From Mytilus galloprovincialis (taxonomy: Eukaryota > Mollusca > Bivalvia > Mytilida > Mytilidae), in contig NC_134844.1 in NCBI RefSeq assembly GCF_965363235.1, positions 21,310,646-21,374,645 of the forward strand: DNA of 64,000 bases, read 5' to 3'. The translations under genes and the position numbers were made by a program. The notes beneath the pieces are model-generated. The model was not told the DNA's origin and did no database searches. It saw nothing but the letters and a program-made list of their open reading frames with translations. This document shows positions 8,134 to 64,000 of the stretch, one piece after another; position 1 is the stretch's first letter; each line of letters starts with the position of its first letter.

Positions 8134-9227
8134 TCAGTCATATACAGCATTTTTAGCAATAGGTTCCATTTCATCTTCAAAAATATCGTCTTTCCGTCGT
8201 TTTTTAAGATATGTATAAATGACACCGATCACTATTATTAATCCAATTGCTATACCTACTCCTATACCTATCATAAGAGGTTTTATAGGAGTATTGTCTG
8301 ACCTCTTAGCGGGTTCAACTATATCAACAGAACCTTGTGTTGTAGTCAAATTTGATACTGACGATGCTGTAGTATTTTTAGAATCAATATCTGATTTCCT
8401 GTCAGAAGATACCACTTCTTGTGTAGTTAACACAGTTGAAACACTTTTTGATGGTATATATACATGTTTCGTCGTTTTTAAAACAGGAACATTTGTCGTT
8501 TGTTTCGCTGTCGCAGTTGACAAAACAGCTGCAGTTGATGTTTTTACTGTTGATTGTTTAGTCTTTTTATTTGTTGGTTTAGTCCTTTTAGTTGTTTTTG
8601 GTAATGCCTTCGTTGTAGTTGTTGTAGGTTTTATCGTAGTTACAACAAAAGACGTTTCCGGTTTTCGTGTTGTTGAAATAGTCACTGTTGTAGGTTTCGA
8701 AGTTATTTTTGTTTTTCTTATCGTACTTGTTGTAATGGTAGTTGTAGTTTCTTTTGTCGTAGAGGCAGATGTTGAAGAAACAGTAGTTTCCCTTGTGGTT
8801 GGCATTGTTTGCTTGATTGTAGTTTTCTTCATAGTCGTAATTGCCTTTGTTATTACTTCTTTTGACGTCATCGATTCAGAAGTCATGCCAGTTGTTGATT
8901 GTTTCACTGGTGAAGTCGTTATATGATTTTTGATCGTTGTTTCTGCTACTGTGGAAGTAATTGGTAGCATGGGTGTTGTAGTTAGTGGTGATACTTTTAT
9001 TGCTTTTGTTTTGAGTTCAGTTGAGCTCTCGGTATTCTGTTCAACGGAACTACTAGAAAACACATTTGTAGACAAATCTATAAATTCGTCTGTTGTTGTT
9101 ACTGGTTGAGTTGTCATGCTTTCTTGAAGTGGTGTCGTTCTGATTAACGGGGCTGTGGTTTGTAGAACGGCTTCTGTGGTCTCAGCTGCAGTTCTTTCTT
9201 GATAACTTATTGTTGTATCCTCATAAT
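8134..9227 (-). CDS. Gene A exon 8: mucin-like stalk, transmembrane helix, cytoplasmic tail
   Basis: 1094 nt, phase 1 in, ending at the stop codon at 8134. The acceptor TTGTAG is followed by DYEDTTISYQERTAAETTEA. About 315 residues are dominated by Thr, Ser, Pro and Lys (runs such as TTIKPTTTTTK and TKRTKPTNKKTK), as expected of a heavily O-glycosylated stalk. The helix PLMIGIGVGIAIGLIIVIGV then leads to IYTYLKKRRKDD and the tail FEDEMEPIAKNAVYD. The terminal exon of gene C starts and spans the membrane in the same way but has almost no mucin stretch and a longer, different tail. An ATTAAA signal lies just downstream. Confidence 0.88.
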
Positions 9228-12200
9228 CTACAATAAAAATATCTTTTTAAATTTGCTTTTTAGACTTACCGCACACATTACATTGACTGGCTCACGAACA
9301 AAATTCCTTAAGGAGCAGGAATTTTTTGTAAGCCCCCTGGTCCACATGAGTTCACCTCTAGTGTTTTATGAATAGGTTCATGTTCGTATTCTGTGTTGAT
9401 TTTTTTTCTTCAGTTGTCCATGTATGTGTTGCCTCTCACAGTAGAAGTAAAAGTAAATATCCATTCTCAAGATTTTTTACATTACATTATGTTTATTTGT
9501 GATAGAATTCAAATGCATTAGTGATGTCATTTAAGTAATTTCTTACACAAGAGACCATTCCTAAACCGCCATTTTCTACATAAAAATAGATGTACCAAAT
9601 CCAATAATGGCAGTTGTTTATTCATTCGTGAGATGTGTTTGAGCTTTTGATTTTGCCATTTGATAAGAGACTTCCCGTTTTGAATTTCTCTTGTAGCTCT
9701 GTATTTATGTTATTTTACTTTTTTGAATGATGCGACTAGTGAAACAAAAATTATAGTCCCTTCTGATGCCTCTGCAATCAATTTGTTCTTGATGTTGTTC
9801 GTGACCTTTAATTTATGTATCGTATATATTTTATTTGTTTACTGTTGACAGTAAGCATATACAAATATGATAATGGTTTTTAAAAGATTTCTCATGTTTA
9901 ATATGAATCAATGTAAAAATTAAAAAATATATAAAAAAATCATAACAGTACAATGCTAAGTATTACAGTAAGTACTTAGACGCGAAAGGAACCATCTTAT
10001 GTTTCAACACCATGCCAAAAGAAAAAACAATTTAACATCGTTATGACAATTACGGGTTGGAAGTGATAATTTCAAAAGGGGTTTTCTTTGTAATTAAGTT
10101 GGAGTTGTCTCTCTTTTTTTGCACACAATGAAAGTAATGAGGTAGGTCATTGACCTAATACGTCACCGGAAGTCTAGAATCGCCTGCTTTGTATAACGCT
10201 GATATAAAAGGACCTGACATTGCAATGGCAAATAGGGCATCCACTTCCAACTATTTATGGGGTGACAATTGCATATACCAAGATGACAATGCCCCGATTC
10301 AAAGAGCAAAAGTTGTGAACACGTTGAACAAAATCAACTTCATGGTATGGAATGGTCAGCACAAAGTTCAGACCTTAATATTTTTGAGAGTATGTGGCGT
10401 AAAATTAAACTTGAACTGCAAAAACAGGCACATAACATAATTACGACGGAGATAATTTTGAACATATGGACAAATATAACCCTTTGAATTCATAAGAAAA
10501 CTTTATGATTCGATTCCAGGTTGTTTGAAGCAAGTGATAAGGGCAAAAGGAAACATCACAAATTATTAGGTGAGTTCAGATTATTTTATTGATATACATA
10601 TGATTAAAAAGGTTGAAAAGTGAAAGATACTTCATAACTGTATGTGGCAGCCATCTTGGAATTATCTTAATTTGTGGCACACACTTAGTTTGAAGTAATT
10701 AAAATGTAAATTTTGTTTAAATTTAGTCATTATTTTCTGTACTCTAAGCAAAATCACTTAGAAGTATAAATCTTAAATCCTGAATTTTTGTTTATTATAT
10801 TGATGAGCGATTCAAGTGAAATATGTTAGAAATAGTTATAAATAGATTACCGTTTGCCATCTCAACGAGATATATTTTCTCACTTGAGCCGGTACGGCGA
10901 AAGTCAGAAAAGCAATCGAATTGAAATGACCAATGATAATCTGTTTATCGCTATTTTTCCTATGACGACGTTGTTAATTTCATTGAAAACTGCCACGTGT
11001 GCCCTTATTTTCTAGTGATACTTTTTCATATCACTCGAATCCGTTGCGAATGGAAATTATCCGTCAGTAAGATCATAGGAAAATTTCGTAAAATAGAGAT
11101 AATGTGTTTTAATGAATTGTATTTATAGGTTGTTGTTTTTGGCAAGTTTAGAAGTTTGATAATTATACCCGTCATAGCCTGGCTAAAGTACTAAGAACAC
11201 GAATGCTCGAATCAATTTGTGCGTGTACTTTGTGTAAAATGTTTCGTCCTTTCAGCGTATTTCATCGTTTTGCTTCATCATCATGAAAAAGTAAAAATAA
11301 TAAAAAATAATTTACTCCATGGAAAATTTAAATCAGAAAGTCCCTTATCAAATGGCAAAATCAAAACTTCAATCATCAAACGAATGGAAACAACTGTCAT
11401 ATTACTGACATTGTATATAGACATTTCCTTATGTAGAAATAGTGATTTACAAAACATATATACGCTGACATTTTTGTGTTTTTAATTAATTGATATATTG
11501 TCAGTATATCTAATAAATTGTTATTTCTTGTGCAATGATCGGAAGTAGGAGGATCGATCCGTGCAATAAAAATCCTTACCGTCCGAACAGTTGTACAGTT
11601 TAGGATCATCTACAGAAATATCACTCAAGTAACTTTTCAACTTCGTACCTTCTATTATAAACTGAAAATACAAAGAAAATACAAAAATTCTGTAGTTTCT
11701 GATAAAACATACATTTACATAAATTTTAAAGAAACAGAAAAGTAATTAAAATATGCAAAAACTGAAAACCGAGAGTCTAAAGATATCATAGAAACAATCA
11801 AAATCATAACTTGAAAACAAACTGACCATTCCATTGCAATTACAAATTAGTCAAAGGTACTTACTTAACTATATCTTTGTAAATTTGACTTACGATGAAG
11901 ATGAATAGTCCTTTTCGGATGTAGCTCTTCAACTGGTTCGGTTCGCCTTTTAAATATTGGATTTTGGTTGTTTCAAATGAAGATTCATCAAGAAAAACAT
12001 TTAATTTTTTCTGTGCGTATGATGCCCATGGGAACATGAAGCTTGGTACCAACCCGGTATCAATATATCAAAGCACAACCTACAGTTTATGATGTGGTCC
12101 GCCGAGCATGTGAATAAATGTATTGAGAGCTATCTATGGTGTACAAAGTTTGTTTCAACTATTAGTATTGCGAACTTTCCGAGTTCTGTATTTTTGTTAT

Positions 12201-15200
12201 TCTTGTTGTTTTGCAAAATAGATAGAACAATTTTTTTAAGAAACCAAGGATTATGCTGCAAGCTCTGTGACTCATAATTTTGTAAATAACAACGCTATCT
12301 TGAGTACCAGGAAAACGATTTATTTTCTTCAATGTCAAATAAACTAGAAATGGAGATCTATGGGTGTTTTCTCTGTTGTAAAAATAAAGAAAACTCTAAT
12401 TGTTTATCAAGAGGGGCGTAACACCCTTTTTTTAAATCTATTTTGTAATCTTGAATAATAAGAAACAGTGGACTACATGTGAAGTCTTCTATACAAAATT
12501 ATGCATCAGAAAATGTACTTAATTTCAACATATAGTTCAAAAGTCAATGTGCACATACACTGGAGAAATTTCTAAAAATAACTTCAGGAACACATTTAGA
12601 TATTCCATACTTCTTATAGCAAAACTTTAGAATTTTATTTCAGTTGAAATCTCCTTATCACCTAAAAGTAATGAGGGAATATAAAAAGATAAGTCTATTT
12701 TCAATTTATATTGCCTCTGAAATAAAATTGTAAATTTCGTGACTCTGAAAGACTTACGTTGTTTTGATTTTCACAAGCATAATTACCCTGAAAGACTTTT
12801 TTTGTTCTCCGATTGGAAATTGTGCTTTTATCCATTCGTCACCTTGATTCCCAGAAACGTCGAACTTTGCTTTTTGTGATAACGTATCCGTTTGTCCCAT
12901 TTCTCCAATGTATATTTTCAATCTTCCAACTTCTGTTTAGAAAAAATATGATTTTCTTGCTTTCTTTTACGAATATCAGTAATATCATATGTAAATTAAA
13001 GGAAATTTCCTGATATTTCAAACTTTTGCACAGAAGGTTGTCTGTTGGGTCATTCGCATCAATAAATTTCCCTCACTTTTAATTTATTTTATATCATATA
13101 AAAGTATGTTTATCTACATAATGTGATTAAAATACTAATAATAATCATTGTTTTTCTTATAATGTATTGTGCATATTGTTGATTGTTTTAAATTTTTATT
13201 TAATACCGGAAAAGTGCCAAAAAACAATGAAATGTACAATAGACGTTTAACAAGTGAAACTGCGAGCTACTGCTCACAGATGATACCCCCGCCGCAAGTG
13301 GATAATATTAATAGTGTAAAAATATGCAAGTGTTCGATAAACAGGAAGTTGTCGAGTGATGAATCTGAAAACGCATCACACGGTATAGCTGACTTATATA
13401 AATCCTGAAACCAAATTTCAGAAATCCTTGTATTGTAGTTCCTGAGAAAAATGTGACGAAAATTTTCAACTTGGCTATCATGTGTAAACTCATACAAGTG
13501 TTCGGTAAACAGGAAGTTGTCGAGTGATCAATCTGAAAACGCATCACACGGTATAGCTGACTTAGATAAACCCTGAAACCAAATTTCAGAAATCCTTGTA
13601 TTGTAGTTCCTGAGAAAAATGCGACGAAAAATATTCATGGGACGGACGGACGGACTGACGCACTGACGGACTGACGGAAGGACAGACAGAGGTAAAACAG
13701 TATACCCCCCTTTTTAAAGCGGGGGTATAATAACACAAAAGGACTGAAACATTAAATAGAGATTATCATGTGGTGTTTAACAACAGACTACGCTGTATAT
13801 ACAATGTGTCAAGATGTTTATAAAGTCCATACTTTTATATGATATAAAATAAATTAAGTGCCCAGTTCAATGTTGTACCAGGAATATTGTTTCTCGCAGA
13901 GTGGACTACACATGCATAAACAATTCAGTTTATTTTAATCTGCAATCTTTTTTTTTCTTTATTAAAAATTATATAAACCCTTTCCATGCTAAAGATTGGA
14001 AATAGCACAATGAGAAAAGGACAGTTTTTATAAATCCATGAAAAAATTTCTACAAACATTGCCAAATGTGGAACAGGATCTGCCTACCCTGAGCACCTGA
14101 GCACCCTCCCCCCTCCCCCCTCCCCCGTTTTTGATGGAGTTCGTGTTGCTTAGTCTTTCTATGTTGTATTGTGAGTACTTTTTGTCTGTTTGTCTGTTTG
14201 TCTTTATCTTTTTTCGTTATGTCAGTATACATTCGGTGACCGAATACAAGAGGATGTGATTGTGTTTATGACAACTGGAACATATACGTGTTCATCAGTG
14301 GCACAAATGTTTTATAATGAAGTATATAAACTGTGACTACTGTACATAAACAGCTATATCTACCAATAAGAACATGTGGTATCAATAAAACCCATGAAGT
14401 ACAACAAAGTTGTGATCAATTGGAATTAAATGGTAATTATAATTTGTCGACCAATGCTTACGGTTGTTTCCTACAACTCCCCACATATGATACCAGATCT
14501 CAAAACACAGACCGCCTGTTGTAGCGGGAAAGTACGGAGATAGTAGTCTGGCTTTGTCGTTTATTTTTATAGGAGATGATGATTCCATAAACATATAATG
14601 CCCTGTAATAAACAAGAAATTCGATTCACATGTCTGTCATACAAGGCAATGATCAACTCAAATAACATATAACTTTATATTTTATAATATGTATATTTTC
14701 TGTTTACTACTAGTGCACAAAGAAATAATTCTTTGACACATTAGAACCAATCATTGTTTAATTATAAAATCATTGTTTAGTTACACATATGTTTCCCCCT
14801 TCAAACGTTTATTATTCTTTTTCCGACTTTTTTCCGTAAAAAAAGAACTCCCATAATTGTATGTTTATTTTCCTACCGTTTCTACCTTTACCCAAGGTAT
14901 GGTCATATTTCGGACCTGTGCGTCGAGTAGGTGTGGTACCAGAATTCCATTTCCATTCAAAGTTTGCTAGTTTATCATGTTGCCAGCCACATATATTTTC
15001 ATCTTCAAAATCACAATAATTTCCTGGTTCTACATCTGCAAACAAAATTAGTTATAAAACTATGTATTAATAAGTTAACTTAAAAAACAATAACATATGA
15101 AACTTTATATCAATTGTGTAGAATGTTAAAGCATATGTCTTTTTGAATAACAACTAAGCAGATCAAGAAAGATACAAAATTGCGTCATACATGTATCAAA

Positions 15201-18200
15201 TATGCATAGAAGACAATGTTTCAACATAGTAAACAATATTTTCTATATAAACAATATATAACAGATCCTGCTCCACATGTGGATACCGTAATGTTGCTCA
15301 TGTTATTACAAACCCGATAAAAATTTTAATTCGGTAGGTCACATTCATGAAAAGGGAAGGGGATTGTAGTTACGACGTAAGAAACATATCCGATATCATC
15401 TGTGAAACGGATATTTCATAACTGTCAACCAACTCGTGATGGCTTCCGTAAAATTTACGAAGGGATGATTTCAACTTCACCATTTGGAACTCTTGGTTTA
15501 ATAGCTTCCTAGTGAGCAGCAACCCTCTATCAAGGAACTCACGATAGGAAATACAAGCCCGGGAAATATCATATCGATTGGGAAATAAAAACTCCGTATG
15601 CAGGCGCTGCTGGAATGTTGCTACATAGAAATGGAAAGTTCACAGTTGGGAAAGCTGAAATCATCTCGTTTGTCGTAAAGTTTTGTTTTCAATATATAAG
15701 AAGATGTGGTATGAGTTCCAATGAGACAACTCTCCATTTAAGTCACATGTTGTAAAAGTAAACCGTTATAGATCAAAGTACGGTCTTCAACACGGAGCCT
15801 TGGCTCACACCTAACAACAAGCTATAAAGGGCCCCAAATGACTGGTATAAAACAATTCAAACGGGAAACCCAACGGTCTAATCTATATAAAAAAAAACGA
15901 GTCACTTATGAACCACATCAACAAACGAAAACTACTGAACATCAAGTTCCTGACTTAGGATAGGTGCAAACCAATGCAGCGGGTTGAAATGTTTTAATAG
16001 ATAACTTTTATAAAACAAATCTCTACTGACATTATTTCGGGCGACCCAGAGTTGCGCTTGCTAAACGAGCTGCTAATTATCATTGTCAAACAGTTCTATG
16101 TAAAACTTAAAATTAAAATTCTTATTAAATCTTTCTTGAAATCTAAAATTTGTTTTGTTGCATGGCTCAATTAATTTGTTTTATTGTATTTGTGCATATT
16201 CCCTTGTTTTATTTGTTTTATTTGTTTTGTATATGTTTTTTTTTTATTTCTTTATTTGGATAAAAGCTTATCACAACTTATTTTATAATTTTTATACTAT
16301 GCCGAATAAGAATACAGTTGTCTATGCTTGTATGTTGATCAATGCCAAACAAGTAACGTCTCAGTGAACGGTTGGTTTAGGGTAAAGGCAATGAAAATAA
16401 ACTCATCATAGATACCAGGACTAAATTTTGTATATACGCCAGACGCGCGTTTCGTCTACAAAATAAATCCATCTGACATTGCAGTCTTTTCATCTACTCT
16501 CAAGAAAAGGAAGAACAATAAAAACTATGTCCTTTATATCGTTTATTTCTATAGCAAGTGAAGAAAAGTTTTGATTGAGAGTGAGAGATTTAGCTAGCTA
16601 TAAAACCAGGTTTAATCCACCATTTTCTACATAAGAAAATGCCTGTACCAAGTCAGTAATATGAAAGTTGTTATCCATTGATTTAATGTGTTTGAGCTTA
16701 TGTTTTGCCATTTGATTAGGGACTTTCCGTTTTGAAATTTTCTCGGAGTTCAGTATGTTTGTGTTTTTTTTTTATGCAAGTACACCTTCCATTTTGTCTG
16801 TCCCAAGATAAACTTAACGCCTTTTGATGAAAAACATGATTTAGCTTAGTTTTGTTTTGAATGAACACTTCTGCAGGAAAGATTGAAATATGATTTACAC
16901 TAAACATACTTACATTCACATAAAGGGACAGGAGCACTCCAAGTTGTACCATCACAAGTGATCAATTTCTCGCCTGTTAATTTGAGTGGTGGAGCACATT
17001 TGAATTCTAATACAGCACCACCTTGATCTTTAGTGACTGTAAGATTTCCTGAAGATGGAATTTCATCACAACCTTTTCCTGAAAAAAATAGTTTTCGGGT
17101 AATATTTGTTAAATTGATGATATTTCGGTTGAATTCACAGATTATCATATTCCTTAAAACAAAGTACGTTCTTTGTCTATTCTAAAACAATGTTTTCGGT
17201 ATTGCATGTTTGTTTCTAGGTCTGATTGGTTTTTGTCTTGCCTATGACGGAATTCGTTTGGGCTGGATATTGAGGGCGTATAATCTGTAGTAATCAAATT
17301 TGTCAAACAGTTGGTTGAATCTGTTTATAAAGGTGTTTTAGTAGAATAAGTTAACACAACTTTGTACATAATTTCAGATATCAGGATACAAGTTACTTAT
17401 GTTAAATGTAATTCAGCTATGTTGAACGCATCTATTCAATCGCACTTCAGATAAATGACACAATATATAAAATATATCTTGATTTACATCTAGAAATTGA
17501 CAGTCAGGGTCGATTGAAAACAAAACTTTACCACAAAAATGATGAGTTCAGCTGATCTAGTGTGAATTTTCAATTTCTTTATAACAACATTCCAGCAATG
17601 CCTGTATACGAAGTATATATCACCAAGTTGAAACGTTATTCCAGGGCTTGTATTTCCTATCATGATTTTCTTGATAAAATTTGCTGCTCAAAAGGATTCT
17701 ACTAAACCAAGAGTTACAATTATTGAAGTTGAGACTATCCCTTCCTTTTTACAGACTTAATCAAGAGTTAATAGAAGTTATGGAACATATGGATCCCAGA
17801 TGATAAAGGATAGGTTCTTATTGTCGTTAATACAATCCTGTCCTCTCTTCTCCAAATGTAACGTACCAAATCAGAGTTACCACCGGTTTTGTACTTACGG
17901 TTGCCACATGTGGAGCTGATTCTGCTAACCTTTCCGAATTACCTTAGATTACCTCTAGTTTTGGTGTGGTTTGTGTTGCTCACTCTTTAGTTTTCTATGT
18001 TGTGTTTTGTGTTTTGCAAATGCAGTTGTTGCCTTACATGTATATCTCAAAAATAATGCATTTAGAGAAAATCTGACACGGATACAAATGTTCAAAAGGT
18101 CAAGATCTACCACCCCTGAAATTTTCAGACAAGGTAAAAAAAAAAACATTGTTTGGTTGCTGCCACTAAATTGGTGATTAAATGAAATTTAGCATTTTTT

Positions 18201-21200: not shown

Positions 21201-24200
21201 CGAAATTATTGATGATTTTTACATTGCACAAGTATTAGAAGTTTTTTAAAACTTGCTATTTTGAATCTTCCTTTCGAAATACATAACGTTCGCAAATTTT
21301 GTAGGATGTTTTCAAATTATTTTGTATTTCGTCTGGATTGCCTTGTTGATGAATATTGGTCATTCAAACATCTATGCTTATTAATAGTAACCGGCACAAG
21401 AAGCTACCTGGTGTTAGACAGTTTATTCTGCACAAGCAGATTCATCAGACTTTCATTGCTATCTCACGTCTATCAAAGGAGGTTCGGGAAGATCTTAGAA
21501 AGTGTGGAACATATATCTACCATACTCACGTATACATATAGGTGGTGGGAGACTCCACTTGTCGTTTGAACAGATGATAATTTTTGCTCCAAATAACTTG
21601 TATTTACGATAGCATCTGAACTTTGCAATTCTGTTTCTAGCTCGCATTCTTACTCGACCATGTGCCGGACTTTTTAAGGTTGTGCATTTTTGGCCAAAAA
21701 CTAAAACAAAAATATGAGTATCAGTAAACGGAGATTGGTCAAATATAAAAACTGTCGATCCAATAGGACAAACAAAAACATACTGTTACATTTTGTGAGA
21801 GCAAACTAACATTGAAATAGCCCAGAAGACAAATATGCTGTCATAAGTAATGACAAAGAAAAAACATGAAATACCAGCTTATTTAATTTATTCGCATTTA
21901 AATAAGCTATAAATTACATAAGAATCAACGTATATATATATGAATTAAAAACACAAAACGTCACTCATACTACTACGGAAGGAGTATATATATATATATC
22001 TAGCTTTCACAAATACGGCCCTACTTTTTTTTATTCGAGATTCCCAGTATTTGGTTTGACAGAAAGACCTTTTTGTTTCGTTCATTATTCTTTAAAGATG
22101 TTTTGCACATTTTGCAAAATCATACTTAATATGGCTATTTTCATGTCCTTGACGATTAAGGAGCACAACTTGTTGAATAGGCTTATCTCATCAAATCGAT
22201 AAAAAGCAAAAGAAAAAGTCACAATATCACAGACCGGACGTGGCAGGTTATTTATACACCCCTAACAAAAAAACCCAACCCAGTTACATACTGCTAGTTA
22301 TTGCTTTAAAATACCGTTTTTACTATTATTTGTATCCAATGGCACGTAATAATGAATTAGGCGTTCAAAAAATCAAATTATTAGGTATCGGCAACTCTAT
22401 GTATTTCATTGATTTCAAATAAAGGTTATATGCAAAACGCAGCATAGCCGAAACATAAGACCTCGATGCTAGGAAATTCACGATGCAAAGGAATCCACTC
22501 ACTATAAATCTAGACAAATACTTAATGTTAGGAATAATAGATTTCTTAACTAGTAATTTAAACACTCTTGTAAAATTATTGTACATTTTAAGTACCACTA
22601 ATATAATACATAGTTAAGAGGCTTACAATGTAATATAATATGTAGCTTCTTTAACTTGTTAACATTTGAGATAATTTAAGTGACTCAAGTGCTGACATCA
22701 AACACGCCGACGCATGCTTAAAATACATATATAATATAATTCGCAATAACTTAAATGTGTTGTCTTTATATCTTTATAGGTTGTTTGACTTATGTAAGCA
22801 TACAAATATTTATATCTATTTATGTTATAAGTAAAATAACAAAAATACCGAAGTTCCTAAACAAATGGCACACTAAAAAGCCCAAACACGTCAAACGAAT
22901 GGATAACAACTGTCAGCTTGTTTCCGAATCCTATTCTTGATACGTATTTTGTATGATGATATATTTGTAATGATGACGAATACATATGTTTAAACTAACA
23001 ACTGGTATGGGCATTTATGTAAAAAATAAATGGTGAATTAAACCTGGTTTTATAGCTACATTTGAAGCTAAATCTCTTTCCAGTCGCATAAAATTCTATT
23101 TTATTTTAAAGTTGTCCTTGACACTTCACTTAATTGAAAGAGAGAAAAAAATATGACGAAATTGACATGGATCAATACTAAAGAGTTGCCAAAATCTGTC
23201 AAATTGCTGTTATGATATATCTTTAGGCGTTCATAGATAAATAGTTTTTTTACAAATTGGCTGTAATTTTGTTAGAACCTCAAAAAACATGTAAGTGCTG
23301 TAATACTGTGAATTCGTGCAAAGTTTGGAAGACTTTATATAAAAAAAAGCACCGGTAGAAACAAATTCAGGGGGAACATTTCGATTTTTTTTGTAACAGA
23401 TAGATAACAACTTTGGCAGATATATTTCAAAAAAAGAGGGGCGAAATATACCAGAGGAACAGTCAAACTCATTAATCCAAAAATAAACTGACAACGCCAT
23501 GGCTAAAAATGAAAAAAAGACAAACAGACCAATAATAGTACGCAAGAAACAACATAGAAAAGTAAAGACTTCACTTCAATAAAATATGTTACTGATAGTA
23601 ATTAGCTGATCATGTTTAAATATGTCTTTTGTTAATCACGCACTAGGGTGAAAGGTCAAGTTTTCAAGTGAAATACAGTGGAATATCCTGTACATATAGA
23701 CCGATTATTGCTTATTGTTTGCATGTATTGATGTCCATTTGAAGTCTTTTGTGTTTGTTTTTGTTGTTGTTATTGTGTATTTATATATTCTATTTTTATA
23801 TTTTTATAGTTCGTTCTTATGTTGTACTGTTATACCACTGTCCCAGATTAGGGGGAGGGTTGGGATCCCGCTAACATGTTTAACCCCGCCACATTATTTA
23901 TGTATGTGTCTGTCCCAAGTCAGGAGTCTGTAATTCAGTGGTTGTCGTTTGTTTATGTGTTACATATTTGTTTTTAGTTCATCTTTTTATATAAATAAGG
24001 CCGTTAGTTTTCTCGTTTGAATTGTTTTACATTGTCATATCGGGGCCTTTTATAGCTGACTATGCGGTATTGGCTTTGCTCATTGTTGAAGGCCGTACGG
24101 TGACCTATAGTTGTTAATGTCTGTGTCATTTTGGTCTCTTGTGGACAGTTGTCTCATTGGCAATCATACCACATCTTCTTTTTTATATATTATTCATTTA

Positions 24201-25070: not shown

Positions 25071-26280
25071 AGTACGTTACATTAATTTGTAGGATCCTTT
25101 ACTCTAGATAATTTAGCTGATCTGTAGACGTACTTATGAATATAATTATTTTCTGTGACTGTATCTTACATTAATTTGTAGGATCCTTTACTCTAGATAA
25201 TTTAGCTGATCTGTAACAATAACATCTTCATGCCTTATATATCATGTACTGTAGTACGCCGCTAGATTAAAACTGACGTGGAAAGGTAACACATGCCCAC
25301 CGAAAGCTCTTTTTTTGAGAGCCCAGGTGGTCGTGTGGTCTAGCGGGACGGCTGCAGTGCAGGCGATTTGGTGTCACGATATCACAGTAGCATGGGTTCG
25401 AATCCCGGCGAGGGAAGAACCAAAAATATGCGAAAGCAAATTTACAGATCTAACATTGTTGGGTTGATGTTTAGACGAGTTGTATATATATATATATATA
25501 TATTATATATAAAATGATGGTTTGCTTTGAGCATTTGGTATTGTCAGTTTATATGATCTTTACCTCTCTTTTTTTATAATTTTTCTTGCAAAGCATAGAA
25601 CAAATACATTTAGTCTTAGATGAAAGATTTTTTTAATGGTTGTTTTTTTACTTTGACCTAGCTGTCAGTAGCTGCGAGTACTGTCAAATCTGTATTTAGT
25701 ATCATTTGTTGTTTGGATGTACAAGAACCCGGCCACGTCCACTCTGTATTTTGTTAGATATATTTCTATTTGTATCCATCTGATGAGTTAAAAATCTTTA
25801 AACTGATTTTTACAGTTCGTTCTTTATCAGTACTGTTACAACACTGTCTTAGGTTAGGAGACGGTTGGAATCCTGCATGTATCATGTATGTATGTGCCGG
25901 TCCTATGTCAGAAGCCTTTAATTTAGTGGTTGTCGTTTGTTGCTGTCTTGCATATGTTTTTCGTTCAATTTTGTACATTAATCCCGTTAGTTTTCTCGTT
26001 TAAATTGTGTTACATTTAACATTTCCAGGCCTTTTATAGCTGACAATACGGTATGAGCTGTTCTCATTGTTGAAGGTCGTACGGTGACATATAGTTGCTG
26101 ATTTCTGTGTCATTTGGTTTCTTGTGATGAGTTGTCTCAATTAAAATCATATCACATCTATTTATTATACATGCATACCAAACGATTACCGTCTATACAC
26201 AGATGCACTCAGAATGTCTTACCTTGCAAAGTTTCCAACATTAAAAATGATAACATAAATTGCAAAACTATATTCCTCAT
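8134..26280 (-). CDS. Gene A: CCP-CCP-MAM-mucin-stalk transmembrane receptor-like protein (8 coding exons)
   Basis: Coding exons, 5' to 3' on the minus strand: 26280-26223, 21700-21530, 17078-16914, 15035-14877, 14602-14462, 12932-12787, 11661-11580, 9227-8134. All have AG/GT borders and compatible phases, and the sum is 2016 nt (671 residues plus stop). Predicted protein: signal peptide about 1-19; CCP1 (Cys25-Cys75); CCP2 (Cys80-Cys130); MAM domain (Cys139-Cys305) with the CDFED, ICGW and GPKYDH signatures; Thr/Ser/Lys-rich stalk 308-623; transmembrane helix about 624-648; a short tail with a KKRRK stop-transfer, the acidic FEDEMEP stretch and a C-terminal NAVY (NxxY-type) motif. CCP and MAM are extracellular protein-protein interaction modules; adhesion or recognition is inferred. 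Genes B and C are paralogues. No break was seen in any exon. The 5' UTR and any noncoding exon are not defined. Confidence 0.85.
9568..9722 (+). repeat. R1 repeat in the gene A intron between stalk and MAM part 4
   Basis: Begins CCATTTTCTACAT, has GAGCTTTTGATTTTGCCATT in the middle, and ends TTATTTTACTTTTT. R1 copies sit at the same intron position and in the same orientation in genes B (38525) and C (62640). Confidence 0.7.
10190..10575 (+). mobile_element. Tc1/mariner-like transposase fragment (C-terminal third)
   Basis: WGDNCIYQDDNAPIQRAKVV carries the QDDNAP..rA block around the second catalytic Asp of Tc1/mariner transposases. The following sequence, in changing frames, encodes the remains of SPDLN.iE..W..iK and a C-terminal IPGCLKQVIRAKG-like end. 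At least two frameshifts are present and the N-terminal DNA-binding part is absent. It sits in a gene A intron. Confidence 0.75.
11330..11445 (-). repeat. R1 repeat copy, minus orientation
   Basis: Reverse of the CCATTTGATAAGGGACTTTC / TGACAGTTGTTTCCATTCGT motifs of R1. It lies just 3' of gene A exon 7. Confidence 0.6.
11580..11661 (-). CDS. Gene A exon 7: MAM domain, part 4 (C-terminal)
   Basis: 82 nt, phase 0 in and phase 1 out. FIIEGTKLKSYLSDISVDDP followed by KLYNCSD is the typical MAM ending (f.FEg.......dIa.DDi.l..C). The same exon, always 82 nt, occurs at 39340-39421 (gene B) and 62918-62999 (gene C), which makes it the best single marker for counting gene copies here. Confidence 0.9.
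12787..12932 (-). CDS. Gene A exon 6: MAM domain, part 3
   Basis: 146 nt, phase 1 in and phase 0 out. It reads VGRLKIYIGEMGQTDTLSQK, then AKFDVSGNQGDEWIKAQFPI and GEQKKSFR, corresponding to the L.vy......lw..sG.QG..W..a...i region of MAM domains. The donor is GTAATT, chosen because it keeps the frame into FIIEG of the next exon. Confidence 0.85.
13320..13735 (+). repeat. GACGGACGG-tailed repeat with a partly duplicated body (R7)
   Basis: A block beginning GTTCGATAAACAGGAAGTTG and ending CCTGAGAAAAATG occurs twice in tandem (about 13332-13460 and 13500-13620). It is followed by a GGACGGACGG / GACGGACTGACGG tract and a hairpin (TATACCCCCC ... GCGGGGGTATA) at 13701-13731. The duplication accounts for the apparent minus-strand frames here. 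Confidence 0.7.
14065..14225 (+). repeat. R3 repeat tail with C-rich expansion
   Basis: GGAACAGGATCTGCCTACCC and TGGAGTTCGTGTTGCTTAGT match the R3 3' region, interrupted by a CCCTCCCCCC tract. Confidence 0.6.
14462..14602 (-). CDS. Gene A exon 5: MAM domain, part 2
   Basis: 141 nt, phase 1 to phase 1. It reads GHYMFMESSSPIKINDKARL, then LSPYFPATTGGLCFEIWYHM and WGVVGNN, matching the central MAM pattern (G.YM..E ... A.L.SP ... CF.FWYHM.G) and carrying the third MAM cysteine. The donor is GTAAGC. The gene B copy carries indels and stops. Confidence 0.9.
14877..15035 (-). CDS. Gene A exon 4: MAM domain, part 1
   Basis: 159 nt, phase 1 to phase 1. It reads YVEPGNYCDFEDENICGW, then WKWNSGTTPTRRTGPKYDHT and LGKGRNG. 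CDFE..ICGW and tGPk.DHT..G are the N-terminal hallmarks of MAM domains. The gene B counterpart at 42295-42453 is nearly identical and open. Confidence 0.9.
15270..15680 (-). repeat. R3 retroelement-like repeat, minus strand
   Basis: Reverse-strand copy of the repeat at 36464-37010, including the GVYI-type coding remnant (GGAGTTTTTATTTCCCAATC region) and TCCACATGTGGATACC. Lies in the gene A intron between MAM part 1 and CCP2. Confidence 0.65.
15700..15990 (-). repeat. R2 repeat, minus strand
   Basis: Contains GATGTGGTATGAGTTCCAAT, AAGTACGGTCTTCAACACGG and CAAACGAAAACTACTGAACA, the reverse complements of the R2 3' region seen at 23790-24185. Confidence 0.65.
16400..16780. repeat. Fragment of the 366-bp unit followed by R1
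   Basis: 16396-16475 has AATAAACTCATCATAGATAC and GCCAGACGCGCGTTTCGTCT, the head of the unit described at 50840. 16611-16780 is a plus-strand R1 copy. Both lie in a gene A intron. Confidence 0.65.
16914..17078 (-). CDS. Gene A exon 3: CCP/sushi domain 2
   Basis: 165 nt, phase 1 to phase 1, acceptor TTTCAG and donor GTAAGT. The reading GCDEIPSSGNLTV ... LEFKCAPPLKL ... ITCDGTTWSAPVPLCE has the four-cysteine CCP pattern with Trp before the final Cys. One domain per phase-1 exon is the usual arrangement for sushi domains and fits exon duplication. Confidence 0.88.
17500..18030 (+). repeat. R3 retroelement-like repeat, plus strand
   Basis: Diverged copy of 36464-37010: CTTGTATTTCCTATCATGAT, GCCACATGTGGAGCTGATTC and CCTCTAGTTTTGGTGTGGTT. 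Lies in the gene A intron between CCP1 and CCP2. Confidence 0.65.
18090..19555 (+). repeat. AGCTCACC-type long repeat, internal monomers (R6)
   Basis: Three diverged monomers marked by GAAATTTTCAGACAAG (18118, 18886, and a weaker one near 19390), TTATCTTGAATACTATT and TTATTGCCC. The monomer spacing varies (about 770 and 510 bp). The same family is complete at 53228-54742. It expands a gene A intron. Confidence 0.65.
19553..20780. repeat. MITE-like insert and end of the R6 repeat
   Basis: 19553-19600 (GGTGTAATACCACCAAATAA, TACGTCACATCCGGCTGTAT) matches 47071-47146 on the opposite strand. The R6 family ends near 20730-20770 with GTGAGCGATATCAGGCTCTC. The stretch between is not recognised. Confidence 0.5.
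20820..21110 (+). repeat. R2 repeat fragment with a scrap of R3
   Basis: GGTTGGGATCCCGCTAGCAT and TGTCTGCCGTAAGTCAGGAG match R2. 21045-21100 matches the R3 piece around AAATCAAGAGTTCCAATTAT. Confidence 0.6.
21530..21700 (-). CDS. Gene A exon 2: CCP/sushi domain 1
   Basis: 171 nt, phase 1 to phase 1, acceptor TTTTAG and donor GTGAGT. It encodes a compact CCP with four cysteines: CTTLKSPAHG, AKFRCYRKYK, IIICSND and PPPIC, plus the conserved Trp before the last cysteine. The homologous exon in gene B (45617-45780) is frameshifted. Confidence 0.85.
22850..23100 (-). repeat. R1 repeat, minus strand
   Basis: Reverse complement carries CTATAAAACCAGGTTTAATT at 23040-23060 and the TGTCCATTCGTTTGA-type motif near 22890. 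Lies in gene A intron 1. Confidence 0.55.
23430..23560 (-). repeat. R3 repeat tail, minus strand
   Basis: CCAGAGGAACAGTCAAACTC and ACGCCATGGCTAAAAATGAA are the reverse complement of the R3 3' end. Confidence 0.6.
23790..24185 (+). repeat. R2 repeat, the most complete copy in the window
   Basis: Runs from TTCGTTCTTATGTTGTACTG through GGTTGGGATCCCGCTAACAT, GTCCCAAGTCAGGAGTCTGT and GCCGTACGGTGACCTATAGT to CATTGGCAATCATACCACAT. No coding capacity. Other copies: 25725-26160, 26840-27110, 48890-49110, 55000-55200 (+); 15700-15990, 32525-32590, 40975-41215 (-). Confidence 0.7.
24455..24640 (+). repeat. R4 repeat (3' end of a retroelement, here reversed)
   Basis: GGGGAATGTATCAAAGAGAC and CCCACACCCGGTGGTCTAGC match the 3' tail of the element at 61510-62430. 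Other R4 pieces: 37530-37615, 43850-44015, 46295-46375, 60185-60330 and the right edge from 63964. Confidence 0.65.
24989..25066. repeat. (TA)n microsatellite
   Basis: Nearly perfect TA dinucleotide run of about 75 bp. Smaller TA runs lie at 25483-25512 and 27752-27772. Confidence 0.95.
25080..25216 (+). repeat. Direct duplication of a 47-bp segment
   Basis: The segment starting ATTAATTTGTAGGATCCTTT and ending TAGCTGATCTGTA occurs at about 25081-25126 and again at about 25170-25216, right beside the TA microsatellite. Confidence 0.85.
25322..25425 (+). repeat. tRNA-like SINE head
   Basis: A-box-like TGGTCTAGCGG and a perfect B-box GGGTTCGAATCCC about 60 bases apart. The spacing and lack of a closed acceptor stem argue for a tRNA-derived SINE rather than a tRNA gene. 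It lies upstream of the TA-rich stretch at 25483. Confidence 0.65.
25725..26165 (+). repeat. R2 repeat immediately 3' of gene A exon 1 (intron 1)
   Basis: Same landmarks as 23790-24185, more diverged: GTATGTGCCGGTCCTATGTC, GGTCGTACGGTGACATATAG and AATCATATCACATCTA. Confidence 0.65.
26223..26280 (-). CDS. Gene A exon 1: start codon and signal peptide
   Basis: ATG at 26280 opens MRNIVLQFMLSFLMLETLQ, a short hydrophobic leader. It is followed by G and a GTAAGA donor, so the exon ends in phase 1. Gene B has an exon of identical length and phase at 47379-47436 (MRIVFLKFIFLLVVFEIRQ), and both are preceded by the same 22-bp upstream block. That match is the main reason for choosing this exon and start. 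Confidence 0.8.
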
Positions 26281-45780: not shown

Positions 45781-46294
45781 CTGAAACAAAATATGAATAT
45801 TAATAAAAGAGAATGGGTCAAATGTAAAGTTCAATACTATCACATTTGTGACAACAGATTTATACATTTTGAATGAATCTGTCTGAAGTATTTTTGTATT
45901 GTTCCGTCATTTTCGGGACTACGTGTTTATGATTACATACTACATTTTGTAGTAGTCCGTCACATTTATTTCCATCTATGTACATATCTAAACTAATGTC
46001 TAAATAAAAGTCAATCATCTTTGTTTGAAGGGTCTTAGATTTTTATATAAAACAATACAGTACACAATTAATACAATGTATAAACCCATAAAATGTACAC
46101 AACACCACCCACAGTAAATAAAAAAGGGAAAACGTATATCAAAGTATCAATAAATATTCTGGATAACAGCTATTTCCTTCATCTGTACGATTTAAAACGA
46201 ATCTCAACAATATACGCTGATTTCCGAAAACAATCTTGAAAGTATTACAATTTCAACAATAGTTCAACCATATATAATTGTTAAGACCAAAGCA

Positions 46295-47146
46295 CCTCTC
46301 GCAATGTGAAGACCAATTGGTGGCCTTCGGCTGTTATCTGCTCCTTGGTCGGGTAATTGTCTTCTTCACATTTCACCCATTTATATTATCAATTGTAGTG
46401 AGGTTCAGAGGGCAGATGAATAGGGTAAGTTGTTTTCTTTGGTAAAATGTATACCAGTAGACAATATATAATATTCATTACAGCAAAATAATGATCAATG
46501 AAATAATTACTAGAACATCGTGCGGTAGATGTTAACTTCGGTCAGAGTTTATTACGGAGATATGATCGGACCAATAAACGGTATCAATTTAACTGCACAA
46601 GAATCAAGTATAATGTGAATTTGATTGTTTGTTTACGATTTTACCTGGAACTCAAAAATACCCCAGTGCACTTTTTATATATATTTTAAGTTTTCCTATC
46701 GCGTACTTGATTTAGGTTATATGAAATATTAATCATAAGTGAGTCGATTTCCAAAATAAAGTTTCTCTTTGGTGCAATAGTGTTCATGAATTTTTTAATA
46801 AAAATGCAAAAAAAACCTTCAACACGCTGATAAATCGTAGATATAAAAATTAGCGTTCTGCACTCCAAAAGCAGATTTCGTCTGCAAAAGACTCATCAGT
46901 GACGTTCGAATCCAAAGGTAAAGTAAAGGCAAAATAAAGAATGATTTCTAGCATAGGAAAGTCTTTTCAAATTTGTTGAGAAACACCAAACAAAAAAAAA
47001 AAACAAGATATTTATGACTCAGAATTTTTTTACTGCAATGAAATGTAATATAATTATGAATATTGTTTTTGACCCTATTTCGTATAAACCGGAGGTGACG
47101 TAGTATGATTGGTGGTATAACACCTTTATACCATTTTCTGACACAA
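46295..47146. repeat. R4 fragment, 366-bp-unit fragment and MITE-like copy in gene B intron 1
   Basis: 46310-46375: TTGGTGGCCTTCGGCTGTTA (R4). 46855-46915: TTTCGTCTGCAAAAGACTCA (366-bp unit). 47071-47146: inverted match to 19553-19600 (GGTGACGTAGTATGATTGGT, GGTATAACACC). Confidence 0.55.
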
Positions 47147-47378
47147 TTTCGTTGAAGTACGCCTGGTTTTTGTTCGGCATAAATAACTTTTTGACGTCTT
47201 CAATGGTTTAAACTTTCATATAATTTTAAGTTTTAGTAATTTTAGGATTCTAAAAGAAGGTGTTGAAATAACGAAAGGTTTAATGCGAAATTATAATATT
47301 TCATCTTGCAAAAAATCTCTGCAAAGTTGAACGCAAAAACATGAACCCTCTTTTCAATAATGCAATCCTATTACTCAC

Positions 47379-47436
47379 CTTGCCGAATTTCAAAAACTAC
47401 TAATAGAAAAATAAATTTCAAAAATACAATCCTCAT
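47379..47436 (-). pseudogene. Gene B exon 1: signal peptide
   Basis: ATG at 47436 reads MRIVFLKFIFLLVVFEIRQ and then a GTGAGT donor in phase 1. It has the same length and phase as gene A exon 1. By itself it looks functional, but the downstream exons are broken. Confidence 0.75.
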
Positions 47437-55768: not shown

Positions 55769-55769
55769 T

Positions 55770-59195: not shown

Positions 59196-59473
59196 TTATG
59201 TTTCAAAATGATAGTCTACGTCGCTGTCTTTACCATATTTATATATTTCAAATAAGTATTTTCTAGCTATCGGTTCCTCTTTGTCTTCGAAAACATCTTG
59301 TTTTCTGTGCTTTTTACGATGAACATAAATTGCGCTAGTCACTATAATTATTGTTATTACTATTCCAACCCCGATACCAATCAGGAGTACAGTTTGAGTA
59401 GGGTTTTGCTCAACAGCTTCGGTTGTATTAATTGCAGTTTTTTCCTGATTACTACGAGTAATGTCCATATAAT
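59196..59473 (-). CDS. Gene C terminal exon: short stalk, transmembrane helix, long tail
   Basis: 278 nt from acceptor TTGTAG to the stop at 59196. It reads DYMDITRSNQEKTAINTTEA and EQNPTQT, the helix VLLIGIGVGIVITIIIVTSA, then IYVHRKKHRKQDVFEDKEEP and a tyrosine-containing end (YLFEIYKYG, DVDYHFET). The membrane part and FED.EEPIA match gene A, but the last 20 or so residues do not. It lacks the roughly 280-residue mucin stretch of gene A exon 8. Confidence 0.8.
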
Positions 59474-62400
59474 CTACAAATAGAAATATTCCTTATAGCT
59501 TAATCGATCCTTTTACATCATTTCCATATTTTACTGAAATCCCAAAATTAACAGAAACTTTACAATGGAAACAATGACGGATGCGACTTGTGGTACCAGA
59601 ACTGTTTAACTTTCCCGTCCACCGGTGTTCTCCTTATAAAACTGATAAACAGCATTTTACTGAAAATATTTAAACAGTAATGGGTGTCCTAGTTCTTGAA
59701 GTTATTATGTATACTATATGCTATTGTTATAGTTTTTTTTATACAAAAGAACTTTCAGTAGTTTTCACAAAGTGATTGATATAAATAATACCTGTAGGGA
59801 AAGCTGCTAATTTTTCTGTTGTTTTTACTAGACTGGTAATTGTTGTTGCCAAACTTGACGAGGCTTCAGTTGTTTCAAACGGTCTATGATACATTGTTGT
59901 GGTTTGCACAACTGACTCAGTTGTATCTATTGCAGTTGTTATTTTCTATAGCTTAATTGATATTTAAAATTATTACATAATTTCTATTTTTTCACTGAAT
60001 GCCACTTATCACTAATGTCGTAGGGTGAGACATCAAACATTTTCTGATAAATTGAATTAAATAATTCTAAACATTGCTATATAGTGCACTAGAAAATGAG
60101 ATGACGATGAAATTTGTTTTTATTTATTGTGTAACTTATCTTGACATCGGTTTAATAATAACAATGTTATTTGGGTGACGGATTTATTCGCTGTAATGAA
60201 GATTCACTGGTGGTCATGGGATGTTTTCTCTTAATCGATTTATGAATTTTGAACAGATTTATTTTACCGTTCTTTTATTTAAGCCTTTTGTTCGTGTTGT
60301 TGTCTCTTTAACACATTCCATGTTTCCCTCTCTTTATTAATTATTGTTTAAATCTTGTTGTCTACATTTCGTATTGAAATACAAATCCCTATGATGTCAA
60401 AGGTACCTATTAGAAAACTGTAGATTTGACGTTTGAATAGGCAGTTTCACTATAGATAGCGATGGAGAGAAAAAAGAATATTTGAGACGGTCAAATTCAA
60501 AGTTGACGTTGACAACTCTCAAATGAATGAAAATTAATTTCGTGTTTGAGATTGACTTTTGTTATCGAAATCATAAGTCATGTAGCATTCAATTAATGAC
60601 TGAAGTCACTAATGAAGACGAAAAAAGTAAAATCATCAAAATAATGAACTCCGAGGTATATTTAAAAATAAAAATCCATATTAATCAAATGGTAAACTCA
60701 AAGCTCAATAAATCAAACGCATCGATAACAAGTGTCATATTCCTGACTTGGTACAGGTATTTTCTTATGTAGAAAATGATGGATTCAACCTGTTATTATA
60801 GTTAGCTAAACATCTCATTTTTAGGACAGTTACATCACATTCCAATATATTGACAACGATGAATGAACAAAACAAACAGACATAATTGGTAAAAATGTCA
60901 AAAATAGGGGCACCAGAGTCAGCACAAAAAGGCTGATAGAAAAAGCACAGTAGTAAGTGTTTTGGTAAAAACTACCAGTGAATGCTTAATGAGATGAATA
61001 CATAAAGTAATCACATATGTGATAAATTGATAAAGATTTTAAATAACTAAACATAACTCAAAGATTGGGCGCTGAATTTAAGCTTTTGTCTTTTGCTAAT
61101 TTGTTTAAATATTGCTTGTTTTTATCTTTTTTATAGTAAAACATTCGGTAATTTTCACAAAGTAACTAATATAAATAACACCTGTAGGGGAAACTGCAAA
61201 TTCTTCTGTTGTGTTAACTAGACTGGTAAATGTCATTGTCAAACTTGACGAAGCTTCGGTATTTTCGACGGATCTATGATACGTCGTTGTGGTTCCCGAA
61301 CCTGACTTGGTTGTATCGATTGCAGTTGAATCTTGGTAACGAAGAGTACTGTCCGTATAATCTACATATAAAAATCTATGTATCAAAGTTAAAGATTCAG
61401 TATGTACATCTTTAACTTAATAGGTCTTTACAAAATAATTTAACAATTTTACTGTCATATCTGAATCTGGACTCTATTTGATAACAATATCTATTAATCT
61501 GAACATGAATAAAATTGAGAATGGAAATGGGGAATGTGTCAAAGAGACAACAACCCGACCAAAATAAAAAAAACACAACAGCAGAAGGTCACCAACAGGT
61601 CTTCAATGTAGCGAGAAATTCCCGCACCCGGAGGCGTCCTTCAGCTGGCCCCTAAACAAATATATACTAGTTCAGTGATAATGAACGCCATACTAATTTC
61701 CAAATTGTACACAAGAAACTAAAATTTAAATAATACAAGACTAACAAAGGCCAGAGGCTCCTGACTTGGGACAGGCGCAAAAAATGCGGCGGGGTTAAAC
61801 ATGTTTGTGAGATCTCAACCCTCCCCCTATACCTCTAACCAGTGTAGAAAAGTAAAAGCATAACAATACGCACATTAAAATTCAGTTCAAGAGAAGTCCG
61901 AGTCTGATGTAAGAAGATGTAACCAAAGAAAATAAACAAAATGACAATAATACATAAATAACAACAGACTACTAGCAGTTAACTGACATGCCAGCTCCAG
62001 ACTTCAATTAAACTGACTGAAAGATTATGATTTCATCATATGAACATCAGGCACAATCCTTCCCGTAAGGGGTTTAGTATCATACCATCATAACATATAT
62101 GAGAAGAACATAACCCGTGTCATGCCAACAACTGTTTTTAGAATAAATGTGTTTAGTTCCGACGCAAAGACCTTATCAGTGACTCAATATTAACGCCAAA
62201 ATATGCAATCTTTAATGACTTGACAACAGTATCGTAATTATATCCCTTCTTAATAAGTCTATTCAAAGGTTTTGTAAGTTTATGAGGTGAATACTGACAC
62301 CTTTGTGCTTTATAAAGAATATTTCCATAAAAAATTGGATGTGAAATACCTGAACGTATAAAAAGTCTGCATGTTGAGCTATATTTACGAATGATGTCTT

Positions 62401-62999
62401 TATACCGATGATAAAATTTAGTAAATGTTTTGACTAGTTATGAATACCATAATTTGCTATTGAAAGAAAAATCTAGAGAAGAAGTTTGTCTTATAAACCC
62501 AACACAGTCGATGACTTCATAAAGTAAAGACGTCATGGCATCACAAATGAATCGACGCACGACTTTTTAACAACCTTTTAGCTTTTTCTTTTTTGACATA
62601 TGAGTTTCTTTTTATAGTGATTATGCGACTGTCATACAAGTGAAAGGTTCAGCTAGTTTTAAAACAAGGTTTTAACAACCATTTTCTAAATAAGAAAATG
62701 CCTAGACCAAGTCTCTGCACTTAATAATAAAAGATGTGTTAACATAAGAGGAGCTTGTAATTTTTACACAGGGCATTTGTCATAGCAGTGAACTGACAGT
62801 TACTGTTGCAACAGTATTGCAATTTTTAGACAGGATATCTAATTGATTATAAAATAAAGGTAATTATAATACTTTTATTGACCTAATGCAAGATTGGTAA
62901 TCAATTGTAAAACGTACCGTCTGAACAGTTGTACAGTTTAGGATCATCTACAGAAATATCACTCCAGTAACTTTTTAACTTAGTACCTTCAATTATAAA
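59196..62999 (-). CDS. Gene C, 3' part: MAM end, stalk, transmembrane, tail (continues past right edge)
   Basis: Supported exons: 62999-62918 (MAM part 4), 61361-61182 (stalk) and 59473-59196 (terminal exon with stop). Their phases fit (1 to 1 to 1). A second stalk exon at 59792-59944 is damaged and probably skipped. The 5' exons (signal peptide, CCPs, first MAM exons) lie beyond base 64000. The visible product ends in a membrane helix (VLLIGIGVGIVITIIIVTSA) and a tail of about 40 residues that differs from gene A. No lesion was seen in the three supported exons, so C could be functional, but most of it is not visible. Confidence 0.7.
59792..59944 (-). pseudogene. Gene C second stalk exon, 5' end lost
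   Basis: ITTAIDTTESVVQTTTMYHR and later EASSSLATTITSLVKTTEKL match the intact stalk exon, and the donor (GTATTA) is good. The first 40 or so bases, including the acceptor and DYTDS start, are missing; the sequence runs straight into what is intron elsewhere in the family. The nearest AG gives a wrong phase with an early stop, so the exon is probably skipped. Confidence 0.65.
60690..60790 (-). repeat. R1 repeat fragment in gene C
   Basis: AACAAGTGTCATATTCCTGA and TTTTCTTATGTAGAAAATGA are the reverse complement of R1. The 81-codon plus frame overlapping it is not a gene. Confidence 0.55.
61182..61361 (-). CDS. Gene C exon: Ser/Thr-rich stalk
   Basis: 180 nt, phase 1 to phase 1, acceptor TGTAG and donor GTGTTA. 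It reads DYTDSTLRYQDSTAIDTTKS and continues with SGSGTTTTYHRSVENTEASS and LVNTTEEFAVSPT, so it is Thr/Ser-rich with NTT sequons. It is homologous to the start of the gene A terminal exon, to the gene B stalk exon and to the damaged exon at 59792. Confidence 0.75.
61510..62430 (-). mobile_element. 3' end of a retroelement: reverse-transcriptase C-terminus plus long 3' UTR
   Basis: On the minus strand about 90 codons from about 62425 to 62145 read KTFTKFYHRYKDIIRKYSST, then HPIFYGNILYKAQR, KLTKPLNRLIKKGYNYDTVV and SLIRSLRRN followed by a stop. From memory this matches the C-terminal region of reverse-transcriptase proteins common in bivalves. The 3' UTR then runs through the R2-like CCCAAGTCAGGAGCC motif to an R4 tail ending GTTGTTGTCTCTTTGACACA. 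It is 5'-truncated, the visible coding part is open, and it sits in the gene C stalk-MAM intron. The class (non-LTR or other) is not certain. Confidence 0.65.
62640..62712 (+). repeat. R1 repeat at the conserved intron position in gene C
   Basis: CAAGGTTTTAACAACCATTT then AGAAAATGCCTAGACCAAGT, which is the 5' part of R1. Once the inserted retroelement is discounted, it is at a similar distance from the stalk exon as in genes A and B. Confidence 0.55.
62918..62999 (-). CDS. Gene C exon: MAM part 4
   Basis: 82 nt with acceptor TTTCAG and donor GTACGT: FIIEGTKLKSYWSDISVDDP then KLYNCSD. Nearly identical to the gene A exon. Confidence 0.82.
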
Positions 63000-63963
63000 C
63001 TGAAAATGCAAATACAATATTAAGTCATTTGTGAAGATTGTAATGAAAGAAGCATTTATCTATAAAGATTTGATGTTACAGAACACATGCTTTTTAAACT
63101 TTTTGTTGCATTTTCTTTTAAATCGAATTCACCTTGGCTTAAATGAACTGTTTAATACTAGTTAATAAAAATAATTTACATAAATGCATTAAAAACCAAA
63201 AGGTACTTTGATTTACTAATCTCAAGAACGTTTTAAACGTTGAAAGTAAAGGATATTTAAGAAATCATAAAACCAATGTGTTTTGTTAAACAAGTATAAG
63301 GCGAAAAGTTTCTATTTTTCATTTTTCTACTGGGATTCACCTAATGTGCCATTTTAAATTGTGTGATAATGGAAGACAAATTTACATAAATGCATTGATT
63401 GATACATTTAACCAAGGAACTTTATATTTAACAAAACCATATAAGGTAAAGGTAAACTTGTTCCGTCATGTTCTCTTCATTTCATAAAATATAGAGATGA
63501 AGACCTTCTATATAAACGTGTGTAACAAACCATGACCAAATACAAAAAAAGGCTGCTAGGTCGTTTGTATAAACAGATTAAATTGTACTGCAATCAAATG
63601 AACCACAAAATTGAAACATTCTTTGATAATAAAAAGAGTTATAGAAATCAAACCACTGACCTGAATTTTGCAACTCACAATTTTGTTAAAAAAAAAACGT
63701 TACGTCAACAAGAACAAGGAACAATTAATTCTCTTTTCGGTCTGCGTTTAAACGTTGCCAAATTCGTTGTTGAATCATAAGAGGCAGTGATTCCGATAAC
63801 TTAAGTTTCAACTGTTTGGTATATTTTTTTCCGGATAAAACAATACATGTACGTTGTCAGAAAATATAAAATTCAATTGTACTCGCTACGAAATAGGATA
63901 ACAGCTCGGCTAGCCTCGTTTCCCGTCCTGTTTCCAAGTTTCATTCAATAATATTTTCCGACA

Positions 63964-64000
63964 ATGTAAATGGGGAATGTGTCAAAGAGACAACAACCCG
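63964..64000 (+). repeat. R4 repeat running off the right edge
   Basis: AATGTAAATGGGGAATGTGT then CAAAGAGACAACAACCCG, the start of an R4 copy. Confidence 0.65.

Follow-up and report, generated by a model that had tools for sequence, protein, structure and literature searches.

In this study, a 64,000-nucleotide window of Mytilus galloprovincialis DNA (contig NC_134844.1, here C7:21310646-21374645, in a genome of 1.38 Gb in 331 contigs) was found to hold part of a head-to-tail row of four receptor-like genes, A1, A2, A3 and A4, which lie on the minus strand, span about 82 kb and continue past the right edge of the window. Three of the four (A1, A3 and A4) are open. Judged from the predicted proteins, the layout of two CCP (Sushi) domains followed by one MAM domain, a Ser/Thr-rich stalk and a single transmembrane (TM) helix is that of a class C scavenger receptor (SR-C), a name absent from the preliminary description of this DNA. 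The sequence itself shows how the genes are built, which domains they encode, how many copies exist and which have decayed, and how rates of change and charge compare among them, and we lean towards the view that these are SR-C-like receptor genes, whose product would sit on haemocytes, bind microbial polyanions and take up particles. The results suggest that this receptor class exists in molluscs too, putatively as a counterpart of the bacteria-catching receptors of insects and shrimp.

A1 runs on the minus strand from window position 26280 to 8134 and has eight exons with GT-AG introns, joined into one 2007-nt frame (668 aa) in the order signal peptide, CCP1, CCP2, MAM over four exons, stalk, TM helix and short tail, and Pfam reports MAM at E 2.1e-35 and Sushi, in two stretches, at E 9.1e-10. 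Exon 1 (26223..26280, 58 nt, phase-1 donor GTAAGA), which is added here to the exon set described earlier, carries the start codon and a 19-aa signal peptide. CCP1, with a net charge of +13 in 57 aa, occupies exon 2 (21530..21700) as judged by Pfam Sushi, splice sites and charge, whereas frame reading and Pfam place CCP2 in exon 3 (16914..17078) and MAM parts 1 to 4 in exons 4 (14886..15035), 5 (14462..14602), 6 (12787..12932) and 7 (11580..11661, 82 nt). Frame reading and composition identify exon 8 (8134..9227), which encodes a 312-aa stalk, one TM helix, a short tail and the stop codon; the stalk holds 28.5% Thr, 12.5% Ser and no Cys, and Thr and Ser together make up 41% over the whole length. 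The single-pass membrane protein with CCP-CCP-MAM layout and Thr-rich stalk that had been proposed for this locus is borne out by the A1 frame, by Pfam and by the TM helix. Two other features were observed within A1, namely an open stretch on the plus strand in its last intron (10159-10440), DDE transposase-like by eye and matching no Pfam family at E 0.01, and a two-copy tandem repeat at 13314-13630 (149 nt at 168-nt spacing, 94%).

The preliminary description had counted three copies by their MAM part 4 exons, called one intact, one decayed and one partly visible, and advised that the assembly be extended on both sides. All three exons lie where it placed them, on the minus strand at 11580-11661, about 39340-39421 and 62918-62999, and A1 is indeed intact and A2 decayed, but A3 proved complete and open once the right flank was read. 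Exons 1-6 of A3 were found by flank reading at C7:21375268-21388955 (minus strand), right of the window, and exon 7, MAM part 4, lies at 62918..62999; the lengths of exons 1-7 (58, 171, 165, 150, 141, 146 and 82 nt) are the same as in A1. The last exon, 8c (59196..59473, minus strand), supplies a short stalk, TM helix, tail and stop codon, and an unbroken frame of 396 aa, or 456 aa when the optional, in-frame stalk exon 8a (61182..61361, minus strand) is included, leads to that stop. A further stalk-like stretch, 8b (59800..59939, minus strand), was rejected as a coding exon because no in-frame acceptor was seen by eye, and is taken as a relic. A3 and A1 share 231 of 279 ectodomain residues (48 differences). 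Signal exons of 58 nt were also found by pattern scan in A2, A3 and B2 (B2 being one of two copies, B1 and B2, described below); that of A3 was the single match of the scan, differs from that of A1 in 14 of 19 residues and is the least certain A3 exon.

Extension of the assembly adds a fourth head-to-tail gene, A4 (C7:21391188-21401186), right of A3 and with the same exon plan, open over 563 aa, as well as B1 and B2 at C7:27.31-27.39 Mb; tandem arrangement and local copy gain, as proposed earlier, are confirmed by A1-A4. By sequence reading there are therefore three complete eight-exon open frames, A1, A3 and A4. A4 is far more divergent, with 106 of 271 aligned ectodomain residues identical to A1 (39%). 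In both A3 and A4 Pfam finds two Sushi stretches and then MAM, and Ser plus Thr make up 23% (A3) and 30% (A4) of the 30 residues before the TM helix; stalk length and exon number vary among A1, A3 and A4. Within A4, at C7:21397260-21397900, the MAM part-2 acceptor and the first part of the exon stand in five tandem copies of a 103-bp unit, and the full MAM part-2 exon can be read only from the last copy.

Class C receptors are described as membrane-bound or secreted proteins with a CCP region ahead of a MAM motif (PMC4493455, 2015). A CCP region N-terminal to one MAM was found by Pfam in A1, A3 and A4, together with a signal peptide, a Ser/Thr-rich stalk and one TM helix, the signal peptides being hydrophobic first exons from reading of open reading frames and from the pattern scan. 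A signal peptide, a MAM that follows the CCPs, a stalk rich in Ser and Thr and a TM helix are also reported for insect SR-C proteins (Drosophila dSR-CI, Spodoptera Sf-SR-C; PMC6191154, PMC4493455). A close counterpart in published descriptions is MjSRC of the shrimp Marsupenaeus japonicus, with two CCPs, one MAM, one TM helix and no somatomedin B domain, and 692 aa against the 668 aa of A1 (PMC5222524), though it comes from an arthropod and is likened here by description, not by sequence. Among MAM domains in PDB, the best match for all three open genes was 8YT7, the MAM structure of Spodoptera SR-C (PMC11203654), with 98.5 bits for A1 (MDGA1 93.5), 90.9 bits for A3 (MDGA1 87.8) and 98.5 bits for A4 (MDGA1 84.1, a margin of 14 bits). 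In a MAM tree of 16 rows (A1, A3, A4, 8YT7, MDGA1, enteropeptidase and ten MAM domains from C7:25.76-25.85 Mb; the tree covers MAM only), A1, A3 and A4 fell with 8YT7 in one group of moderate support (86/80), apart from MDGA1, enteropeptidase and the ten C7 MAMs. Tree and PDB matches support kinship with SR-C, short of proof.

In four close copies the charge of the head is consistent with a polyanionic ligand. Over 57 residues the net charge of CCP1 is +13 in A1, +11 in A3, +11 in B1 and +10 in B2, with 11 positions Lys or Arg in all four, and that of CCP2 in the same copies is -2 to -6. So strongly basic a CCP1 would fit polyanion binding, and polyanion binding is reported for dSR-CI, in which CCPs and MAM together are enough for bacteria (PMC5222524). 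Since CCP1 of A4 is acidic (-6), A4 would have to recognise different ligands or bind through a different face. A single-sequence structure prediction of CCP1 reached a mean pLDDT of 66.5, too weak to use. By analogy with dSR-CI and MjSRC, from which location, ligand and uptake are all inferred, the open genes would encode type I membrane proteins on haemocytes, in which the stalk, of variable length, may keep the CCP-CCP-MAM head off the membrane; the basic CCP1 and the MAM would bind repetitive polyanions on microbes, and the receptors might then cluster and the particle be taken up by a route like that of MjSRC, which reportedly forms trimers by way of its CCP and MAM domains and enters the cell with beta-arrestin2 and clathrin (PMC5222524). 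The most likely function, on this analogy, is that of a haemocyte pattern-recognition and uptake receptor.

Several points weigh against this assignment. For A3 and A4 the signal exon was identified by the pattern scan only, the margin of 8YT7 over MDGA1 is just 5 bits for A1 and 3 bits for A3, and a PDB search with the whole ectodomain ranks complement receptors top, through their many CCPs. In the tree, which includes only one true SR-C, the SR-C group lacks the star that marks a well-supported branch (one of 13 inner branches is starred and eight are open). The acidic CCP1 of A4 means that a basic CCP1 is not cluster-wide, and the CCP charges are compared among family copies only. The tails, in which no clear endocytosis motif was seen by eye, are short, whereas the intracellular region of MjSRC is described as binding beta-arrestin2 (PMC5222524). 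Moreover, somatomedin B, which Spodoptera SR-C is reported to carry (PMC6191154) and which sets insect SR-C apart from the mussel genes, gave eight matches genome-wide, all of them outside C7, with 94 of 94 candidates scored, so that a full insect-type SR-C was rejected; shrimp MjSRC is likewise described without it, and somatomedin B would thus mark an insect subgroup and not the class.

MAM serves adhesion in other proteins, and an adhesion or signalling receptor of molluscs in which CCP and MAM were shuffled independently into this order, and which works in cell-cell adhesion and not in microbe capture, is the best of the alternatives, though we consider it unlikely. Shuffling would be easy, as both domains are plentiful in this genome (517 MAM and 581 Sushi candidates, of which 150 were scored in each scan, so that counts from them are lower bounds), and the MAM of MDGA1, a MAM-containing glycosylphosphatidylinositol-anchored protein with Ig domains, is similar enough to score almost level with 8YT7 for A1 (93.5 bits) and A3. 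However, the MAM of MDGA1 falls outside the group in which the open genes join SR-C with moderate support, the strongly basic CCP1 fits polyanion binding, and the copy turnover and fast CCP change described below are not what a structural adhesion gene would usually show.

The SR-C-like family totals about six loci on C7, three open (A1, A3 and A4) and three decayed (A2, B1 and B2), a count that is reliable where copies are close and a minimum where they are divergent. With the CCP pair of A1 as query, 10 of the 13 rows at E <= 1e-4 belong to A1, A2, A3, B1 and B2 (72 of 72 candidates scored) and the remaining three match weakly, at E 2e-5 to 6.4e-5; with the A4 ectodomain, no additional locus with CCPs of comparable match strength appeared among the 130 of 261 candidates that were scored. 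The remnants of A2 (38150..47436, minus strand) include the signal exon (47379-47436, 58 nt), CCP1 (about 45.62-45.76 kb), CCP2 (43.22-43.38 kb), MAM1 (42.30-42.45 kb), MAM2 (41.88-42.00 kb), MAM3 (40.66-40.79 kb), MAM4 (39.34-39.42 kb) and a piece of stalk (38.15-38.23 kb), followed by a second stalk-exon remnant at 36409..36459 (minus strand). The frame is broken in CCP1, in MAM2 (with stops) and in MAM3, and the CCP2 donor is altered. The sole TM exon found for it, at about 33.3 kb, is inverted: a TM and tail exon of the family stands on the plus strand at 33330..33510, broken into two pieces that match the TM exon of A3 at E 8e-12, and probably belongs to A2. Between A1 and A2, on the plus strand at 35019-35261 and 35788-36108, there are also weak reverse-transcriptase-like and zf-RVT-like fragments under the Pfam cut-offs.

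The two B copies, both decayed, lie at C7:27.31-27.39 Mb, on the same chromosome and 6 Mb from the cluster. In B1 MAM part 1 is broken and the MAM2 donor changed, and in B2 MAM part 3 was not detectable. A scan that was positive in three of three controls (A1, A3 and A4) found no stalk or TM exon in the 23.4 kb below B2 or in the 11.9 kb below B1. Its only matches there were two near-identical TM stretches, one per flank, GPCR-like by eye (C7:27307806 and C7:27369049), and the B pair may therefore have arisen by a segmental duplication in which another gene was copied as well. With about half of the copies decayed, the cluster is, as far as the DNA tells, one that evolves by birth and death, in which tandem copies would arise, CCPs outpace MAM and about half decay. 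Many intact local paralogues, as in a large diversified immune receptor repertoire, were not found in this family of six loci with three open, the A4 search having scored 130 of 261 candidates.

Rates of change were estimated from A1, A3, B1 and B2, leaving out A2 wholly, the broken MAM part 1 of B1, MAM part 3 of B2 and the too divergent A4; in the exon-by-exon rates MAM part 1 is not listed. Between A1 and A3, MAM evolves under purifying selection (omega 0.20, interval 0.10-0.36), compared with 0.74 (0.38-1.78) for the CCP pair (Fisher p = 0.020, on rounded counts). The CCP omega exceeds that of MAM in five of five pairs that include A1 or A3. Fisher tests, run on four pairs, gave p = 0.011 for A1-B1, 0.005 for A3-B1 and 0.18 for A1-B2, again on rounded counts; these values come from pairs that lack independence, and from B copies that are in decay.

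The preliminary description saw here a diversifying, locally expanded recognition or adhesion family, and a rapid form of this for recognition, with new specificities produced by variable stalks and by positive selection acting on the CCP head, would draw on the faster CCPs with low Fisher values in A1-A3, A1-B1 and A3-B1, on Ka > Ks of CCP2 in A1-B1, A1-B2, A3-B1 and A3-B2, on the differing stalk lengths and exon numbers of A1, A3 and A4, and on Drosophila Sr-CI, cited for an excess of non-synonymous fixations (PMC6169979). We regard it as quite improbable. The CCP omega is 0.58-1.01 over six pairs and all six intervals include 1, which falls short of showing positive selection (omega above 1); A1-B2 is non-significant, B2-B1 is reversed (CCP 0.59, MAM 1.02), only two close genes, A1 and A3, are open, and the decay of B1 and B2 means that relaxed constraint accounts for part of the CCP excess. 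The earlier interpretation is partly supported: right in kind, with copy gain and CCPs faster than MAM, and overstated in degree, given about six loci, half of them decayed, and these intervals. A broader idea, possible though doubtful, is that SR-C is an old protostome class which molluscs have kept as a cluster of fast turnover. On this view a basic CCP1 that binds polyanions and a fast-changing CCP2 would together make up a head that varies, set on a conserved MAM, and duplication of stalk exons would tune the length of the stalk.

That B1 and B2 work as soluble SR-C-like proteins and are not dead genes is very improbable, for while their flanks gave no stalk or TM exon in a scan positive in all controls, and soluble class C proteins exist (PMC4493455), with two such members in flies, neither copy keeps a whole MAM.

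Class C has been called insect-only in PMC4493455 (2015), PMC6191154 (2018) and PMC11203654 (2024), and known from few invertebrates in PMC5222524 (2016). Literature searches aimed at a molluscan class C receptor found no report, and one may still be in print. In the portions available of two clam studies, scavenger receptors are classified from human and mouse ones into nine listed families, class C not among them (PMC9337622), and an MDGA1-like transcript is reported, with no class C (PMC4769524). The molluscan cluster would therefore be a modest, concrete extension of a known receptor class. If the same head and anchor hold in a mollusc, the class would be pushed back towards the base of the protostomes, and mussel immunology would gain a concrete candidate phagocytic receptor, with open and decayed copies as a natural set in which to trace where the head is changing.

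Some minor observations concern other parts of the window and genome. A two-copy tandem repeat lies at 55456-55767 of the window (156 nt at 156-nt spacing, 96%). A single open frame of 3519 aa at C7:25.760-25.770 Mb, within about 130 kb rich in MAM domains, accounts for 18 of the 150 scored MAM rows and shows LDL-receptor-A-like stretches by eye (MALRD1-like). Another open frame, of 2821 aa at C1:110.309-110.318 Mb, is a giant CCP array with no internal introns and accounts for 39 of the 150 scored Sushi rows. Myticins are known from Mytilus, and the family gave 17 matches in this genome (30 of 30 candidates scored), with matches to this type of antimicrobial peptide clustered at C10:51.84-51.88 Mb and C1:94.61-94.64 Mb.

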